In this document: positions 13,385 to 57,000 of the stretch, in pieces
How positions within the stretch are numbered: position 1 is the first letter of the stretch
How the letters are laid out: every line of letters begins with the position of its first letter
From: Bryobacterales bacterium
GTDB taxonomy: Bacteria; Acidobacteriota; Terriglobia; Bryobacterales; Bryobacteraceae
DNA length: 64,000 nt
Reading direction: 5' to 3'
Assembly: GCA_003164035.1 (NCBI GenBank)
Contig: PLRS01000014.1
Coordinates: 56,582-120,581 of the forward strand
Made by a program: the position numbers and the translations under genes
Notes under the pieces: model-generated
What the model was told of the DNA's origin: nothing
Seen by the model: the letters and a program-made list of their open reading frames with translations, nothing else
The model's database searches: none

Positions 13385-13876
13385 CGGTCTCCTCTCCAGC
13401 GTCAAATTTTGCAATCGTACCAAGGCTGTACCGGAGTACCGCGTCCGGAAAGCCATAGGTACCCCGGCGGATCGATGTGGAAACACATCGATGCGCTTTC
13501 CTTCTCAGCCATCATACAACGCCAGGTGGTTCGTTACCATGGTCCGAGTCGAGGAGGGCGCTTAACCGATCCCAGGAAGTTATTTCCCGTCGACCGGAGG
13601 GTGTGAAAGAATCGTCTGGCAGGCGGTACCGCCCATAGGCGCTAACTTAACGTGGCGCACGCACTCCTGCGTGCCGCGTCGAGACTTTCTCGACGCCTGC
13701 GCTCGGACTGGTGCGACGTGTGATTAAGGGCTCAGAATCGCAGCCCCGAGAGGGAGTCTCCCAATCGAACCAAAGCGCGTCGAGACGAGTCTCGACGCGG
13801 CACGCAAAAGTGCGTGCGCCACGTTGGGGCTAAGTTAGCGCCTATAGGCGGAACCGCCTGCCCCACCAAAGGACCG
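13385..13876. other. 492-base intergenic region dominated by a long palindrome
   Basis: No gene is supported between the aldolase start and the radical SAM gene end. The main content is the 245-base nested inverted repeat 13618-13862. The flanks (13385-13617) show no clear coding or structural signal. Confidence 0.6.
13618..13862. repeat. Long nested inverted repeat containing two family B units
   Basis: The outer arms begin GGCAGGCGGTACCGCC at 13618 and end with the reverse complement at 13862. They continue through GGCGCTAACTTA and the family B core GTGGCGCACGCACT (left arm to about 13697, right arm from about 13776). The arms differ by a few substitutions and one short insertion (GCCCC next to CTAAGTTAG). 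Each B unit contains its own smaller palindromes (GCACGCACT..TGCGTGC and CGTCGAGAC..GTCTCGACG). The size and symmetry resemble a non-autonomous mobile element or a composite REP-like element; no target-site duplication was confirmed. Confidence 0.85.
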
Positions 13877-15279: not shown

Positions 15280-15337
15280 GCGAGAGAAGCACCGGGATGA
15301 GTCCCGGCGTGGCAGACTAAAAGTCCGCTCCACGAAG
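15280..15337 (+). repeat. Family E repeat
   Basis: Contains AGCACCGGGATGAGTCCCGG followed by CGTGGCAGACTAAAAGTCCGCTCCACG. It includes the palindrome CCGGGATGAGTCCCGG and a second imperfect one, GGCAGACT..AGTCCGCTCC. Related copies are at 18428-18456 and, reversed, at 48223-48270. Confidence 0.75.
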
Positions 15338-19855: not shown

Positions 19856-20030
19856 GTGGCGCGCGCACTCTTGCGTGCCGCGTCGAGACTCGTCTCGACG
19901 CCGACGCTCGACCGGGCCACGTCCGGTGAATTGAAGACGAGGCGGTTTTGCCAAAAGAGGTTGAGCCATTCCAACAAGAGCGGGCGTCGAGATGAGTCTC
20001 GACGCGGCACGCACGAGTGCGTGCGCCACG
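19856..20030. repeat. Family B inverted pair between jag and mnmE
   Basis: The left arm 19856-19902 (GTGGCGCGCGCACT... to TCTCGACGC) and right arm 19984-20030 (GCGTCGAGATGAGTCTCGACGC... to GTGCGCCAC) are reverse complements with a few mismatches, separated by about 80 bases. It fills nearly the whole gap between the jag stop (20034) and the mnmE start, inside a conserved operon. Confidence 0.85.
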
Positions 20031-27203: not shown

Positions 27204-27284
27204 GCGACCGCTCCCTTACGGTTGCGGTACCGATCGACGTGGCGCACGCACTCGTGCGTGCCGTGTCGAGACTCTTCTCGACAC
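27204..27284 (+). repeat. Adjacent family A and family B repeats
   Basis: A diverged family A arm (27204-27233, ACCGCTCCCTTACGGTTGCGG) is followed within a few bases by a family B unit (27239-27284, GTGGCGCACGCACTCGTGCG then CGAGACTCTTCTCGACAC). They fill the gap between the receptor and VWFA genes. Confidence 0.75.
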
Positions 27285-29475: not shown

Positions 29476-29817
29476 TAGCCCCTGTGCTGTCCCATTCTGG
29501 AATCTCGCGGTGAAGGCGTACAACCGAGAGACGCTGGAAGAACTCCAACCTCCGCGACCTGTACCGGGACCTGACCAGCGGCAAGATTCCGGGCATTGGG
29601 TGGGTCGACGAAATCGCAGTCGGATGAAGTTTGGTGGGACAGACCATCGCCTTTCGTGGTCTGTCGTGCCCTGTCGACGCGCCCCCGCGTGACAGACGAC
29701 AAAATACGATCGTCTGTCCCACCTCTCCCTGCACCGGCTAAGCCTGCGCCACCGGACGACAGCCGAGGCACTGCTGGAAGCCTGATAAAATTATAGTTTC
29801 CCTTGGAGGTTCAGACG
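29476..29817. other. 342-base intergenic region with a family D inverted repeat
   Basis: Between the VWFA and ispG genes. It holds the inverted repeat at 29633-29723 and, near 29785, an AT-rich TGATAAAATTATAG that may belong to the ispG promoter. No gene is supported. Confidence 0.5.
29633..29723. repeat. Family D inverted repeat
   Basis: The left half begins GGTGGGACAGACCATCG and the right half ends CGATCGTCTGTCCCACC, the reverse complement with small changes. Inner arms CTGTCGTG and GACAGACGAC add a second stem. The element matches 56754-56845 and half of 54927-54960. Confidence 0.85.
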
Positions 29818-38958: not shown

Positions 38959-40347
38959 ATGGCCGCAACTTCCGTCGCCGCGCCCGTTAGCCGCCCGCTT
39001 TCCTGGCAGTGGAACCTGGTCTGGACCTCACTGGGAACCGCCGTTTATGCCGCCTGCAACTGGGCCATGCTGAGCGCTATCGCCAAGCTGGGCACGCCCG
39101 AAATGGTGGGCGAATTCGCGCTTGGCCTGGCGGTGACGGCGCCGGTGCTGCTGCTGGCGCAGATGAATCTACGCGCGGTTCTGGCCACCGATACCACCGA
39201 CGAGTACAGCTTTCGCGATTACCGGGCGTTACGGTTGAACGCCACCTTGGCGGGCCTTGTCGCCATCGCGGCCATCGCCTGGGCGGGTTACGGCTCGAAG
39301 ACCGCAACGGTGGTGATGGCGGTGGGGCTGGCGCAGGCCATCGAAGGGGTGAGCGACATTTACTACGGTCTGATGCAGCAGCACGAGCGCATGGACCGGA
39401 TCACCATTTCGCAGCTCTGGCGGGGGCCGGCGGGATTGGTGGCGATGGCGGTGGGCGTGGCCCTGACCGGGTCGGTGCTCTGGGGTGCGGTGGCGCTGGT
39501 AGCGGTGCGCCTGGCCGTGCTGGCGATCTACGACGCCGGCGCCGGCACGCGCGATTTTCTGCTGAAAGACGGCGCGAAGTCTCACTTGTGGGGCAGCCTT
39601 TTGTGGGGCAGGTTGTCCAACCTGCGGACCGATTTTCAATCGGTCCAGCCGGGCGAAGCCCGGCCTTTCTTGCCCCGCGATTGGCGCCAGCGCGCCTCGC
39701 GGCAGTTTTCCATCTTCTGGCTGGCGGCGCCGCTCAGTAGCGTCATGCTGTTGAATTCGCTTTCCACCAACATGCCGCGCTATTTCATCGAACACCACAG
39801 CGGCACGCGCGAGCTGGGCATGTTTTCGGCGGCGGCTTCACTGGTGGCCGTGGGCAACACCCTCATCAACGCCCTCGGCCAGGCGGTAACGCCCAAGCTG
39901 GCCAAGATGTTCGCCTGGGAGGGCGCAGCCAAATTCGCCGCCTTCAGCGGACGGTTGGTGGCCCTCGCGGTCGCATTGGGGTTGTGCGCCATCGGCTGCT
40001 CGATGGTGCTCGGGCGCTGGGTGCTGACGCTGATGTTTCGTCCCGAGTACGCAGCCCAAGCCGGGCTGCTCACCAGCCTCATGATTGCCGGCTCCATCGG
40101 CTACGTGGCCACGCTCCTCGGCTACGCGGTGACAGCGGCCCGCTCCTTCCGGCCGCAATTGCCGCTTTTCGTGATCGTGACGCTGGTGACGCTGGTCGGC
40201 TGCGCGGTTTGGATTCCGGCGCGAGGGTTGGCTGGCGCCGCCATCGCCACCGGAGTTTCCTCGGCGGTGCAACTCGCCGGCCTGGGCTATTTGGTCTGGC
40301 GCGTGATTCGCCACGCCCGCCGCGCGGAGGCCCAAACCCATGCGTAG
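38959..40347 (+). CDS. Wzx-like polysaccharide flippase carrying an in-frame family C repeat
   Basis: A 462-residue membrane protein with about 12 helices, of the oligosaccharide flippase (Polysacc_synt) type. It moves lipid-linked repeat units across the inner membrane. Residues about 215-236 (SNLRTDFQSVQPGEARP) come from the dispersed family C repeat at 39601-39664 and sit in a loop between helices. The core family does not need this stretch, so it looks like an insertion tolerated by the protein. The gene begins 5 bases after the Wzc-like stop and overlaps the next gene by 8 bases. Confidence 0.85.
   Translation: MAATSVAAPVSRPLSWQWNLVWTSLGTAVYAACNWAMLSAIAKLGTPEMVGEFALGLAVTAPVLLLAQMNLRAVLATDTTDEYSFRDYRALRLNATLAGLVAIAAIAWAGYGSKTATVVMAVGLAQAIEGVSDIYYGLMQQHERMDRITISQLWRGPAGLVAMAVGVALTGSVLWGAVALVAVRLAVLAIYDAGAGTRDFLLKDGAKSHLWGSLLWGRLSNLRTDFQSVQPGEARPFLPRDWRQRASRQFSIFWLAAPLSSVMLLNSLSTNMPRYFIEHHSGTRELGMFSAAASLVAVGNTLINALGQAVTPKLAKMFAWEGAAKFAAFSGRLVALAVALGLCAIGCSMVLGRWVLTLMFRPEYAAQAGLLTSLMIAGSIGYVATLLGYAVTAARSFRPQLPLFVIVTLVTLVGCAVWIPARGLAGAAIATGVSSAVQLAGLGYLVWRVIRHARRAEAQTHA
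39601..39664 (+). repeat. Family C triple-hairpin repeat, inside the flippase gene
   Basis: TTGTGGGGCAGGTTGTCCAACC leads into three hairpins: GGTTG..CAACC, GACCGATT-TTC-AATCGGTC (a perfect 8-base stem) and CCGGGCGAAGCCCGG. Other copies: 40369-40434, 48291-48358, 50646-50700 and 50758-50806. Confidence 0.88.
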
Positions 40348-41749
40348 CGCCTCGGCAGCCCCCAGTTTTTGTGGGGCAGGCTGTCAACCTGCGGACCGAT
40401 TTTCAATCGGTCCAGCCGGGCGCCAGCCGGGCCGTTCGCTGCTGGAACCGGTACCGGCCTCAGCCCGCATTCCGCGACCTCGCGATTTCGGAGTCTTCCC
40501 CCGCCAGGCACGAGTGCCCGCGCCAGCATCCGATCTGAGTGCCGCCGGCCGCGTTGCCTACGCGTTCCTCTGGCTGTTCGTGCTCTCTTTCCCGGCCGAG
40601 AAAGCCTTCGAGATTCCCGGCCTGGGAACGGTGTCGCGTCTGTTCGGCCTGTTGGCGCTCGGCGCGGGAGTGCTCGCCGCCATCGCCGACCGGCGCCTGC
40701 GTCCGCTCAGCCGGACCCACGCCGCCCTGGCGGTGTTCGTGCTTTGGGCCACTGTGACCGTGCGCTGGAGCCTGGCCCCGGACGATACCGCGGTCAAGGT
40801 CCAAACCTACCTGCAATTGCTCGGCATGGCGTGGCTGGTTTGGGAATTCTGCCCCACCGAGACGCGCATCGCCGGCATCATGCGGGCCTATGTCTTCGGC
40901 ACCTTCTACGCGGATTACGACACCTTCCACCGCTGGCTTGGCGCCCATGCGACCTACTACCAGCGCTATGCCACGGCCGGCTTCGATCCCAACGATCTGG
41001 CACTGACGCTGGCCCTCAGCCTTCCGCTTTCGTTCTACCTGGCGCGGCGCGCCCGCCCCTCCCTCGCGTGGATCTATTGGCTGCAGATGGCCCTGGCGTT
41101 TCTGACCATTCTGCTTTCCGCCTCGCGAACGGGCTTTCTTACCGCGTGCCTGGCGGCGGCCATCGTGCCCCTCGGCGCGCGTTACATGAGCCGGACCGAG
41201 CGCCGCCTGATCGCTTTGGGCCTCGCCGCGGCGGTGACCGGCGCCCTGGCGGTGATTCCCGCAACCAGTTGGAAAAGGCTTTCCACCATCGGCGCGGAAG
41301 TATCTTCGGGATCGCTCAACAGCCGCACGCTGATCTGGAGCGCGGGGTGGCAGGAGTTTCGCGAACGGCCGCTGGCCGGCGCTGGCGCGGGTGCGTATCC
41401 GCGCGCCGTGGAGCCGGTAATGGGCTGGCCCACCTGGTGGCGGATCGTGGCGCACAATACCTTTTTTTCGGTGCTGGTGGAAACCGGGATCGTCGGTTTC
41501 GCCCTGTTTGCCACCGTGCTGGGGATGCTGGTGGCGGCGGTAAAGCGCATGGCGGGCTTGGACCGGCTGCTCTGGGCGGTGATGCTGGCGGTCTGGACGG
41601 TGGGAGTCAACACGCTGAGTTGGGAAATCCGCAAGCCGACCTGGCTGCTGTTCGCGCTGGTGCTGGGAACGGCGAGGCTGGGGGCCAAGGCGGCAACCGC
41701 CGGCCCGCCGCGGCGGTATCCCGTCGCGCCCGAGGTGGTGCTGCCGTGA
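40340..41749 (+). CDS. O-antigen ligase/Wzy-like membrane protein
   Basis: A 469-residue protein with about 11 helices (about 65-455) and a large periplasmic loop, of the O-antigen ligase family (Wzy_C). The loop segment SSGSLNSRTLIWSAGWQEFRERPLAGAG contains the conserved R-x10-G-type pattern. It probably polymerises the repeat units. Residues 10-32 are family C repeat sequence (FCGAGCQPADRFSIGPAG), so the true start may be downstream, for example GTG 40511, just before the first helix. ATG 40340 overlaps the flippase stop, which supports coupling. Its stop overlaps the next start (GTGA). Confidence 0.82.
   Translation: MRSASAAPSFCGAGCQPADRFSIGPAGRQPGRSLLEPVPASARIPRPRDFGVFPRQARVPAPASDLSAAGRVAYAFLWLFVLSFPAEKAFEIPGLGTVSRLFGLLALGAGVLAAIADRRLRPLSRTHAALAVFVLWATVTVRWSLAPDDTAVKVQTYLQLLGMAWLVWEFCPTETRIAGIMRAYVFGTFYADYDTFHRWLGAHATYYQRYATAGFDPNDLALTLALSLPLSFYLARRARPSLAWIYWLQMALAFLTILLSASRTGFLTACLAAAIVPLGARYMSRTERRLIALGLAAAVTGALAVIPATSWKRLSTIGAEVSSGSLNSRTLIWSAGWQEFRERPLAGAGAGAYPRAVEPVMGWPTWWRIVAHNTFFSVLVETGIVGFALFATVLGMLVAAVKRMAGLDRLLWAVMLAVWTVGVNTLSWEIRKPTWLLFALVLGTARLGAKAATAGPPRRYPVAPEVVLP
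40369..40434 (+). repeat. Family C repeat at the 5' end of the ligase gene
   Basis: TTGTGGGGCAGGCTGTCAACC, then GGACCGATTTTCAATCGGTCC and CCGGGCGCCAGCCGGGCC. It is read in a different frame from the flippase copy. The following 60 bases resemble those after the copy at 48291 (CGCTGG..ACCGG..CTCA..ATTCCGC), so the mobile unit may be longer. Confidence 0.85.
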
Positions 41750-48222: not shown

Positions 48223-48270
48223 TCGTGGAGCGGACTCTCAGTCTGCCACGCCGGGACTTATCCCGGCGCT
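48223..48270 (-). repeat. Family E repeat, reverse orientation
   Basis: TCGTGGAGCGGACTCTCAGTC then CTGCCACGCCGGGACTTATCCCGGCG is the reverse complement of the unit at 15280-15337. It starts immediately after the sugar transferase stop codon. Confidence 0.75.
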
Positions 48271-48290: not shown

Positions 48291-48358
48291 TTTGTGGGGC
48301 AGGTTGTCAACCTGCGGACTGATTTTCAATCGGTCCAGCCGGGCGCAGCCCGGCCGCT
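48291..48358 (+). repeat. Family C repeat, intergenic
   Basis: TTTGTGGGGCAGGTTGTCAACC, then a near-perfect GACTGATTTTCAATCGGTC stem and CCGGGCGCAGCCCGG. This is the cleanest copy. It lies just 3' of the family E unit and upstream of the beta-helix gene. Confidence 0.9.
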
Positions 48359-50615: not shown

Positions 50616-51477
50616 GAACCAGCTTCCTGTGGAGCAGGTTGTTCCTGTGGGGCAGGTTGGCAACCCGCCGACCGATTGGGGGCGCCCCCTGGGCCCGGTC
50701 CAATCTTCCATCAGTCCGGTAGTTCAAGAACCCGTCTCGACGTCCGCTCGCGGCTGTGCTGTGGGGCAGGTTGGCAACCTGCCGACCGATTCTCAATCGG
50801 TCCAATCTTCCACCGGTTCGGACGTTCCGGGACCCGCCTCGACACCCGCTCGCGATTGTGATGCGGCGCCAATCTCGCTGGCCGTCCGTTTGTCCCGTGG
50901 CCATCTCGAAGCTCGCGAGGTCCTGCGCTACGCCACCGATCTCGCCGCCGATCTCGCCGCGCGCCATCGGGCGGGCCGCGCGCACGGCGCCATCGCGCCG
51001 GAAGCCGTACTGCTGGCCGGCGGCTCCGCGCGCCTCGAGGACCCGCCCCGGTTGGGCATTTCCGCGGGCCTCGATGCCGTGCAGTTCGCCGCCTTGCTCC
51101 GGGTAATGGCGCGCGCCTGCGCCGAACCGGATCGTGCCGCTCTCGGAGCCTCCCTCGGGGCGCTCTGCGGCCGCTATCTCAACCCGGAAGCCGGGCCCGG
51201 CGCGCAGTCTTTCAAGAAACTGCTGCTGGCGCTCAAGGTCCTGCGCGTGCAGTATGGGAACCGTGTGCCGGCAGCCGTGGCGCGGCCCGTGGAAATCGTC
51301 CCCGGCCCCGATCCGGCCGGCTCGCGGCCCGCGCCCGAACCTTCCAAGTCCAGGCGCCGCAAGATCCGGATCTTGATCCGCGCCGTGCCTTCCGCTACCC
51401 AACTGATTCCCTATCGACAGCCGGAGCCGCGCCCGTCTCTCTGGCGAAAACTTCGCTTCCTGTTCCTCGGGCGATGA
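50596..51477 (+). CDS. Pseudokinase-like protein with repeat-derived N-terminus
   Basis: A 293-residue protein starting at ATG 50596 behind a strong GGGAGGAGG. Residues about 17-88 are two tandem family C-derived units (VGQVGNPPTDWGRPLGPVQ and VGQVGNLPTDSQSVQ). The rest resembles the C-lobe of a Ser/Thr kinase: LRYATDLAADLAARHRAGRAHGAIAPEAVLL. The catalytic HRD is replaced by H130-G-A132, and no DFG motif is seen. A basic C-terminus follows (SRRRKIRILI). It is probably catalytically dead or a decayed kinase. The position among polysaccharide genes hints at a regulatory or scaffolding role; that is inference. Confidence 0.65.
   Translation: MTPLTAENQLPVEQVVPVGQVGNPPTDWGRPLGPVQSSISPVVQEPVSTSARGCAVGQVGNLPTDSQSVQSSTGSDVPGPASTPARDCDAAPISLAVRLSRGHLEAREVLRYATDLAADLAARHRAGRAHGAIAPEAVLLAGGSARLEDPPRLGISAGLDAVQFAALLRVMARACAEPDRAALGASLGALCGRYLNPEAGPGAQSFKKLLLALKVLRVQYGNRVPAAVARPVEIVPGPDPAGSRPAPEPSKSRRRKIRILIRAVPSATQLIPYRQPEPRPSLWRKLRFLFLGR
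50646..50700 (+). repeat. Family C repeat, first tandem unit (diverged)
   Basis: TGTGGGGCAGGTTGGCAACCCG, then ACCGATTGGGGGCGCCCCCT. The central stem has changed from TTTTCAA to a GC palindrome. It lies in frame in the pseudokinase-like gene. Confidence 0.75.
50758..50806 (+). repeat. Family C repeat, second tandem unit
   Basis: GCTGTGGGGCAGGTTGGCAACC and GACCGATTCTCAATCGGTC. Flanks after both units match (CAATCTTCCA..GTCTCGAC..CCGCTCGCG), so a stretch of about 110 bases is duplicated in tandem. Confidence 0.8.
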
Positions 51478-54926: not shown

Positions 54927-54960
54927 GTGGGGCAGACCATCGTTTTTTGTGGTCTGCCCT
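54927..54960 (+). repeat. Family D half-element
   Basis: GTGGGGCAGACCATCGTTTT then TTGTGGTCTGCCC matches the left arm of the family D repeat at 29633 and 56754. The right arm is absent. It forms its own small hairpin (GGGCAGACCA..TGGTCTGCCC). Confidence 0.75.
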
Positions 54961-56619: not shown

Positions 56620-57000
56620 CGGCTCTCGGCCAAGACCCGTGAGGCAGGCACTTCTGCGTACCGCGTCGAGACTCCGAACTCTGAAGTCGCCCCGGCGGTT
56701 TTCTGGTGCTGAGGAAAATAGGCTCAACTGACGGGGACTGGCGCGGGGAGCCAGGTGGGACAGACGATCGTTTTTTGTCGTCTGTCAGGCTCGGGCAGCG
56801 TGTCGAGGCCTGACAGACGACGAAAAACGATCGTCTGTCCCACCTCCGGGTCGCCGAAACCCGGCTCACCTCAATTTCCATGACTTCCGGAGTTCGGAGA
56901 CTCGTCTCGACGCGCTTTGGTTTGATCGGGAGACCCGCCTTTCGTGCTAGGTCTTCGATCGCCTGGACAAGCCCTTTGGTGGGGAGTAGGCTGGTAACCT
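56620..57000. other. 381-base intergenic region of nested repeats
   Basis: Contains a diverged family B fragment (about 56640-56675), the family D inverted repeat 56754-56845, and a reversed B-type segment (56898-56942) with CTCGTCTCGACGCGCTTTGG that matches 13757-13790. No gene is supported. Confidence 0.65.
56754..56845. repeat. Family D inverted repeat, near-perfect
   Basis: AGGTGGGACAGACGATCG through GTCTGTCAGG is followed after about 20 bases by its reverse complement ending CGATCGTCTGTCCCACCT. The 37-base arms differ at one position. It matches 29633-29723. Confidence 0.92.

Follow-up and report, generated by a model that had tools for sequence, protein, structure and literature searches.

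The window analysed in this study is a stretch of 64,000 nucleotides (G000:C148:56582-120581) from a Bryobacterales genome of 8.0 Mb in 169 contigs. It contains a gene for a Wzx/MOP-type flippase (38959-40347, forward strand; an open reading frame of 462 aa), and a full copy of a palindromic repeat, family C, lies in frame within this gene at 39600-39665 on the same strand (covariance model, 90.2 bits, E 5.0e-13), corresponding approximately to residues 215-236. The copy is 66 nt long and carries the tag GTGGGGCAG at 39603, after which come three hairpins whose arms are fully complementary: hairpin 1 at 39608-39625 (8 pairs; arms 39608-39615/39618-39625), hairpin 2 at 39626-39646 (9 pairs; arms 39626-39634/39638-39646), and hairpin 3 at 39648-39664 (7 pairs; arms 39648-39654/39658-39664), all on the forward strand. 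The flippase reading frame is open throughout the copy; the triple-hairpin repeat that a first-pass annotation had reported inside a Wzx-like gene was found there. Furthermore, TTGTGGGGCAG forms a direct repeat with starts at 39586 and 39601 (spacing 15 nt), which indicates that an extra tag fragment (39586-39600, forward strand) lies ahead of the element.

The Pfam family Polysacc_synt matched the flippase with an E value of 5.9e-5 and 23.1 bits, under the cut-off of 28.2. When a structure was predicted from 19 sequences using AlphaFold, the model showed 12 long helices (pLDDT 88.2, pTM 0.85); the best solved structures matching this model in Foldseek were WzxE chains (E 7.2e-8 to 4.2e-7), and MATE and MurJ also matched. 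Judged from the model, the protein fits the 12-helix MOP fold. Helix 6 is predicted to end at residue 205 and helix 7 to start at residue 242, with a pLDDT below 50 at residues 205-237. In this prediction the insert sits in a linker, modelled with low confidence, that joins helix 6 of the first six-helix half to helix 7 of the second, in agreement with the earlier proposal of a loop between helices.

The insert site in relatives

Flippase matches were obtained in 18 of the 61 genomes searched. The nearest orthologue, 66% identical, was that of a Bryobacterales MAG (isolate palsa_129; record L114; hereafter G020), and it was found to be without approximately 31 residues at the insert site. The addition had been given as about 22 residues in the first-pass annotation; this figure holds for the element itself, whereas the host protein exceeds the closest orthologue by about 31 residues net. 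Homologues having the same residues, which would speak against an insertion, were also looked for. The repeat-encoded residues were present in none of 25 homologue rows (18 further named loci are included, and at least two of the rows, L014 and L119, are from the same genome), and the segment at the insert site was 65 aa long in the host flippase as against 22-46 aa in the homologues. These results support the proposal that the repeat has been accepted as protein sequence, here predicted, in a transporter. Seven repeat matches were observed elsewhere in G020; accordingly, this genome has the repeat but not at the flippase site. No target duplication was identified at the flippase site, where the exact ends of the insert are blurred at 66% orthologue identity.

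The dN/dS ratio between the host and G020 flippases was approximately 0.28 (NG86) or 0.14 (YN00), which suggests that the gene is constrained overall, the ratio spanning the whole divergence and not the time since the insertion. The differences between the two genes numbered 82 and 92 at the third codon positions, and 42/34 and 61/32 at the first/second positions.

A second family C copy (40368-40433, forward strand; 86.9 bits) lies just past the flippase stop, in the first codons of the next open reading frame, which is an O-antigen ligase/polymerase-like gene (40340-41749, forward strand; Wzy_C, E 1.1e-21). The first ATG of this Wzy-like gene overlaps the flippase stop, an arrangement also seen in G020, in which the neighbouring Wzy-like gene is conserved and the second copy is also missing from the alignment. 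The N-terminus reads MRSASAAPS...LSAAGR in the host versus MRRGNLTAAGR in G020. In this region (40340-40540), the repeat and its flank extend the N-terminus by about 60 residues ahead of the conserved protein start, unless a downstream in-frame GTG, which is a possible start, is used.

Family C copies in the window and the genome

When the window was searched for the central palindrome with up to three mismatches, seven matches were obtained against 0.10 expected, and none of 100 shuffles reached this number; because the sequence is palindromic, the seven matches represent four places. Besides the copies in the flippase and Wzy-like genes, the covariance model detected a copy at 48291-48355, which lies between genes as had been described, a copy at 50758-50818 consisting of hairpins 1 and 2 only, and a weak, degenerate copy at 50644-50721 (E 0.047; 91% over 32 nt), all on the forward strand. 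Just before the copy at 48291, a GTGG-tagged repeat of another family was observed at 48225-48269 (forward strand; 98% over 45 nt to the repeat of the RAYT gene L098). Other GTGG-tagged repeats were seen at 13652-13866, 15289-15333, 19856-20029, 27239-27282, 29634-29663, 54927-54959, and 56644-56843; each of the repeats in this set resembles the hairpins bordering one RAYT gene of the host genome, and the window holds at least four families besides family C.

A BLAST search of the host genome using window positions 39590-39675 as the query gave 42 matches, the query itself among them. The covariance model, built from 24 copies chosen from these 42, gave at least 58 distinct places at E < 1e-3 (counted from rows), which is a lower bound because 150 of 11,074 candidates were scored. 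The repeat is thus amplified in this genome, and matches were present in eight of the 61 genomes, the host included. GTGG opened an invariant block in all 24 aligned copies, and the GTGGGGCAG motif was missing from four of the 42 matches. Pairing was kept in 97.9% of cells. Two-sided pair changes were observed at five of the 24 pairs, as compared with a mean of 0.6 after shuffling (none of 500 shuffles was as high); the support from covariation for the hairpins is modest, resting on six cells. In four of 38 copies, read by eye, hairpins 1 and 2 were present but a matching hairpin 3 was missing. Some copies had flanks of 40-60 nt in common past the core on both sides, and in the BLAST list a few neighbouring copies were on opposite strands (for example, C140:83694/83843 and C21:28738/28889). 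We also considered whether the element is specially frame-opening. Of 38 copies, 34, 35, and 33 were open in the three sense frames and 24, 8, and 29 in the antisense frames; nothing was drawn from these counts, since short open frames are not rare at this base composition.

Subsequently to be considered is how often family C lies within coding sequence. Sixty-three places (42 from BLAST and 21 from the model, five of the latter above E 1e-3) were screened using a codon score for which 164 ORFs served as the training set; the threshold, chosen by us, was a score of more than 5 to the left and to the right of the copy within a single frame spanning it. The signal exceeded this threshold at two places, namely the flippase (24.0 on the left and 13.5 on the right) and an MFS transporter (C9:44622; 9.9/24.1). 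Since clear coding on both sides was seen for two of the 63 copies screened, it is only exceptionally that a copy has been accepted into protein; most family C copies lie outside clear genes. The MFS protein (MFS_1, E 1.6e-42) bears the repeat, antisense to the gene, in the middle of the protein, at a position that we take from the MFS fold to be the linker joining helix 6 to helix 7. The insert was missing in all 11 aligned relatives, with an excess of approximately 18-19 residues by eye, and in the BLAST list the flippase and MFS copies were each other's closest match (97%).

Other copies were less clear. A 1007-aa protein on contig C64 (codon score -2.0 on the left and 11.2 on the right) probably carries an in-frame copy in a low-complexity linker, where the relatives are too divergent to show an empty site. 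The C-terminal tail of NuoM (C7) probably derives from the repeat; relatives either stop or vary in this region. Four copies of G020 and G036 were looked at, and none was in a gene with coding on both sides. Separately, a diverged family C copy at C158:162538-162608 (L143), between co-directional genes, may provide a small membrane protein with its C-terminal tail; this protein adjoins a cytochrome-like gene.

RAYT genes bordered by the repeat

Twelve Y1_Tnp matches were found in the host genome, and family C borders none of these 12 loci. A strong match to the family C consensus was seen at L098 only, approximately 1.1 kb from the gene; hence, none of the 12 was regarded as a family C REPtron. 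A class 3 RAYT was likewise rejected as the source: L100, which is class 3-like (YVVEEQ), is bordered by another repeat. As read by eye, GTGG-foot hairpins with other stems border L094, L095, L097, L098, and L099 and, at least on the downstream side, L096 and L101. The repeat families of L094, L095, L096, L098, and L099 had 8 to 23 matches each in 382 kb of host DNA, and that of L097 had one. L101 (G000:C74, 2483-2707) is a class 2-like Y1_Tnp gene with an internal stop (TAG), another decayed RAYT. At L098 (G000:C81, gene at 1410-2253), the open frame ahead of the likely RAYT start includes, in translated form, the repeat that belongs to this gene (GADSQSATPG..., VADWESAPHF).

Six relatives yielded 37 Y1_Tnp matches, of which 30 were taken, so that 42 loci were scanned together with the 12 of the host. 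Family C adjoins the RAYT gene at L204 (G020), L181 (G001), and L191 (G015); at L098 and L194, family C matches lie about 1 kb from the gene. The three family C RAYTs have the NHVH and YIExNP motifs. In a tree of 22 of the 42 loci, which was made after the three loci had been found and from which other classes, short rows, and motif-filter failures were omitted (L099 was restored), L204, L181, and L191 form a clade with a support of 99/95 and with no host gene inside. In G001 and G015, the last part of the RAYT frame is translated repeat, in keeping with the in-frame entry of REPs into tnpA-REP genes that has been described (PMC6006769), and the C-terminus of the G020 RAYT also runs into family C. 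The repeat had been described as mobile or amplified; amplification was seen in the host genome, and mobility is supported by the bordering of a Y1_Tnp clade in three relatives.

When the G020 RAYT was used as the query on the host genome, a C-terminal fragment was found at C126:80194-80412; over 70 aa it shares 73% identity with the query. The YLEMNP motif is present in this relic and the HUH half is absent. Family C flanks it at 80018-80082 (forward strand) and approximately 80411-80451 (reverse strand). This locus (L150; G000:C126, 80018-80451), a relic between inverted family C copies, is a decayed REPtron. An intact cognate RAYT was not found among the matches listed for the 169-contig host assembly; accordingly, we infer the spreading enzyme from the relatives and the relic.

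Origin of the insert and comparison with known systems

We consider it highly probable that family C is a REP-type element spread by a RAYT and that in-frame copies survive in tolerant loops. A RAYT (HUH/Y1_Tnp) of the clade described above, intact in the relatives and a relic here, would spread the GTGG foot together with two or three hairpins, possibly as single-stranded DNA by analogy with TnpA-REP. One copy would have inserted into the flippase gene where the first six-helix half passes into the second. With the frame kept and a flexible linker at the site, the gene would have stayed open and the repeat would be translated in a presumably expressed and functional flippase, the addition of about 31 residues comprising the element and the flanking tag fragment. 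Insertions in genes would mostly be purged, and frame-keeping ones in flexible linkers would remain, probably through tolerance rather than benefit; the same event would have occurred independently in the MFS transporter. Against this explanation, the excess length is unequal, being about 31 residues in the flippase and about 18-19 by eye in the MFS transporter.

A broader reading, that RAYT-driven REPs are a recurrent source of coding sequence for transporter linkers, membrane-protein tails, and RAYT C-termini, some of them selected, fits the RAYT C-termini of G001, G015, and G020 that run into family C; we regard it as unlikely. It is rather improbable, too, that the insert is itself functional and selected, the loop or the mRNA hairpins altering how active the transporter is, how fast it folds, or how the flippase-Wzy operon is expressed. 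The three hairpins are still perfectly paired, two copies lie in one operon, one for each gene's frame or N-terminus, both clear internal insertions are in transporters, and the dN/dS values indicate constraint on the flippase overall. However, perfect pairing is the norm of the family and may mean only youth, the loop is predicted to be unstructured and varies freely in length among relatives, and the dN/dS values reach back beyond the insertion. Very unlikely, in our judgement, is a spread of the repeat by recombination or as a MITE of the classical kind belonging to a DDE insertion sequence, with an incidental link to the RAYT clade. The flanks shared beyond the core by some copies and the lack of an intact cognate RAYT among the host matches could be read in this way, but no strong terminal inverted repeat was seen around the flippase copy, the repeat borders all three members of one RAYT clade as well as the host relic, and several other host RAYT genes are bordered by GTGG-foot hairpins of their own. 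Finally, chance alone would leave the frame intact in one third of the genes hit, and the codon signal is lower on the right of the insert than on the left, but 462 codons without a stop, homology on both sides, a confident 12-helix model, and the codon-position bias in the differences from G020 make it very unlikely that the flippase is becoming a pseudogene and is in frame by luck.

With family C taken as a RAYT-spread REP, the flippase offers a two-sided case, the repeat being present here and the orthologue empty, in which a presumably mobile, non-autonomous hairpin has turned into predicted protein sequence and the change is dated by comparison. A probable mobilising enzyme clade can be named for family C; to our knowledge, the Rickettsia cases lack a named one. 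Whether transporter linkers tolerate the insertion of REPs becomes testable, and peptides such as NLRTDFQSVQPG should be annotated with caution as translated repeat, not conserved protein. We found no report of in-frame REPs in Acidobacteriota in the open-licence literature.

The kind of event is already known, because in-frame REPs and RPEs have been published. REPs inside genes, coding for 20-30 and more residues, have been described in several species, with DNA repair and synthesis genes stressed (PMC3733652). RAYT-associated REPs have a GT[AG]G foot, in-frame REPs have also been described inside tnpA-REP genes, and REP insertions may be harmless in loops (PMC6006769); TnpA-REP acts on single-stranded DNA (PMC8266576). 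Family C resembles the REP/RAYT systems in its short GTGG-foot hairpins, in its dispersed and mostly extragenic copies, and in adjoining a Y1_Tnp gene. It differs from them in that a single GTGG foot precedes a series of two or three unlike hairpins, in that no intact cognate RAYT was seen among the host matches, and in that the clear internal cases are transporter linkers. RPEs are palindromic repeats of approximately 150 bp that are translated in frame in unrelated Rickettsia proteins, nearly half of them being in ORFs (PMC10969869), and enterobacterial repeat units are likewise translated within genes (PMC2759123). Family C is similar to RPEs in being a palindrome in frame in unrelated proteins, the flippase and the MFS transporter, whereas its length of about 66 nt and its two clearly coding places out of 63 set it apart from the RPE descriptions. 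In the same phylum, many short repeats have been described in the Solibacter genome (PMC3174227), and the TIRYT/TIRtron elements of Acidobacteria comprise Y1_Tnp genes bordered by repeated palindromes (PMC3733652), an arrangement shared with family C and its RAYT clade. The class 3 TnpA-Y1 of Solibacter has a YVxxxQ motif and a CnGA foot (PMC6006769), whereas the family C RAYT has YIExNP and GTGG.
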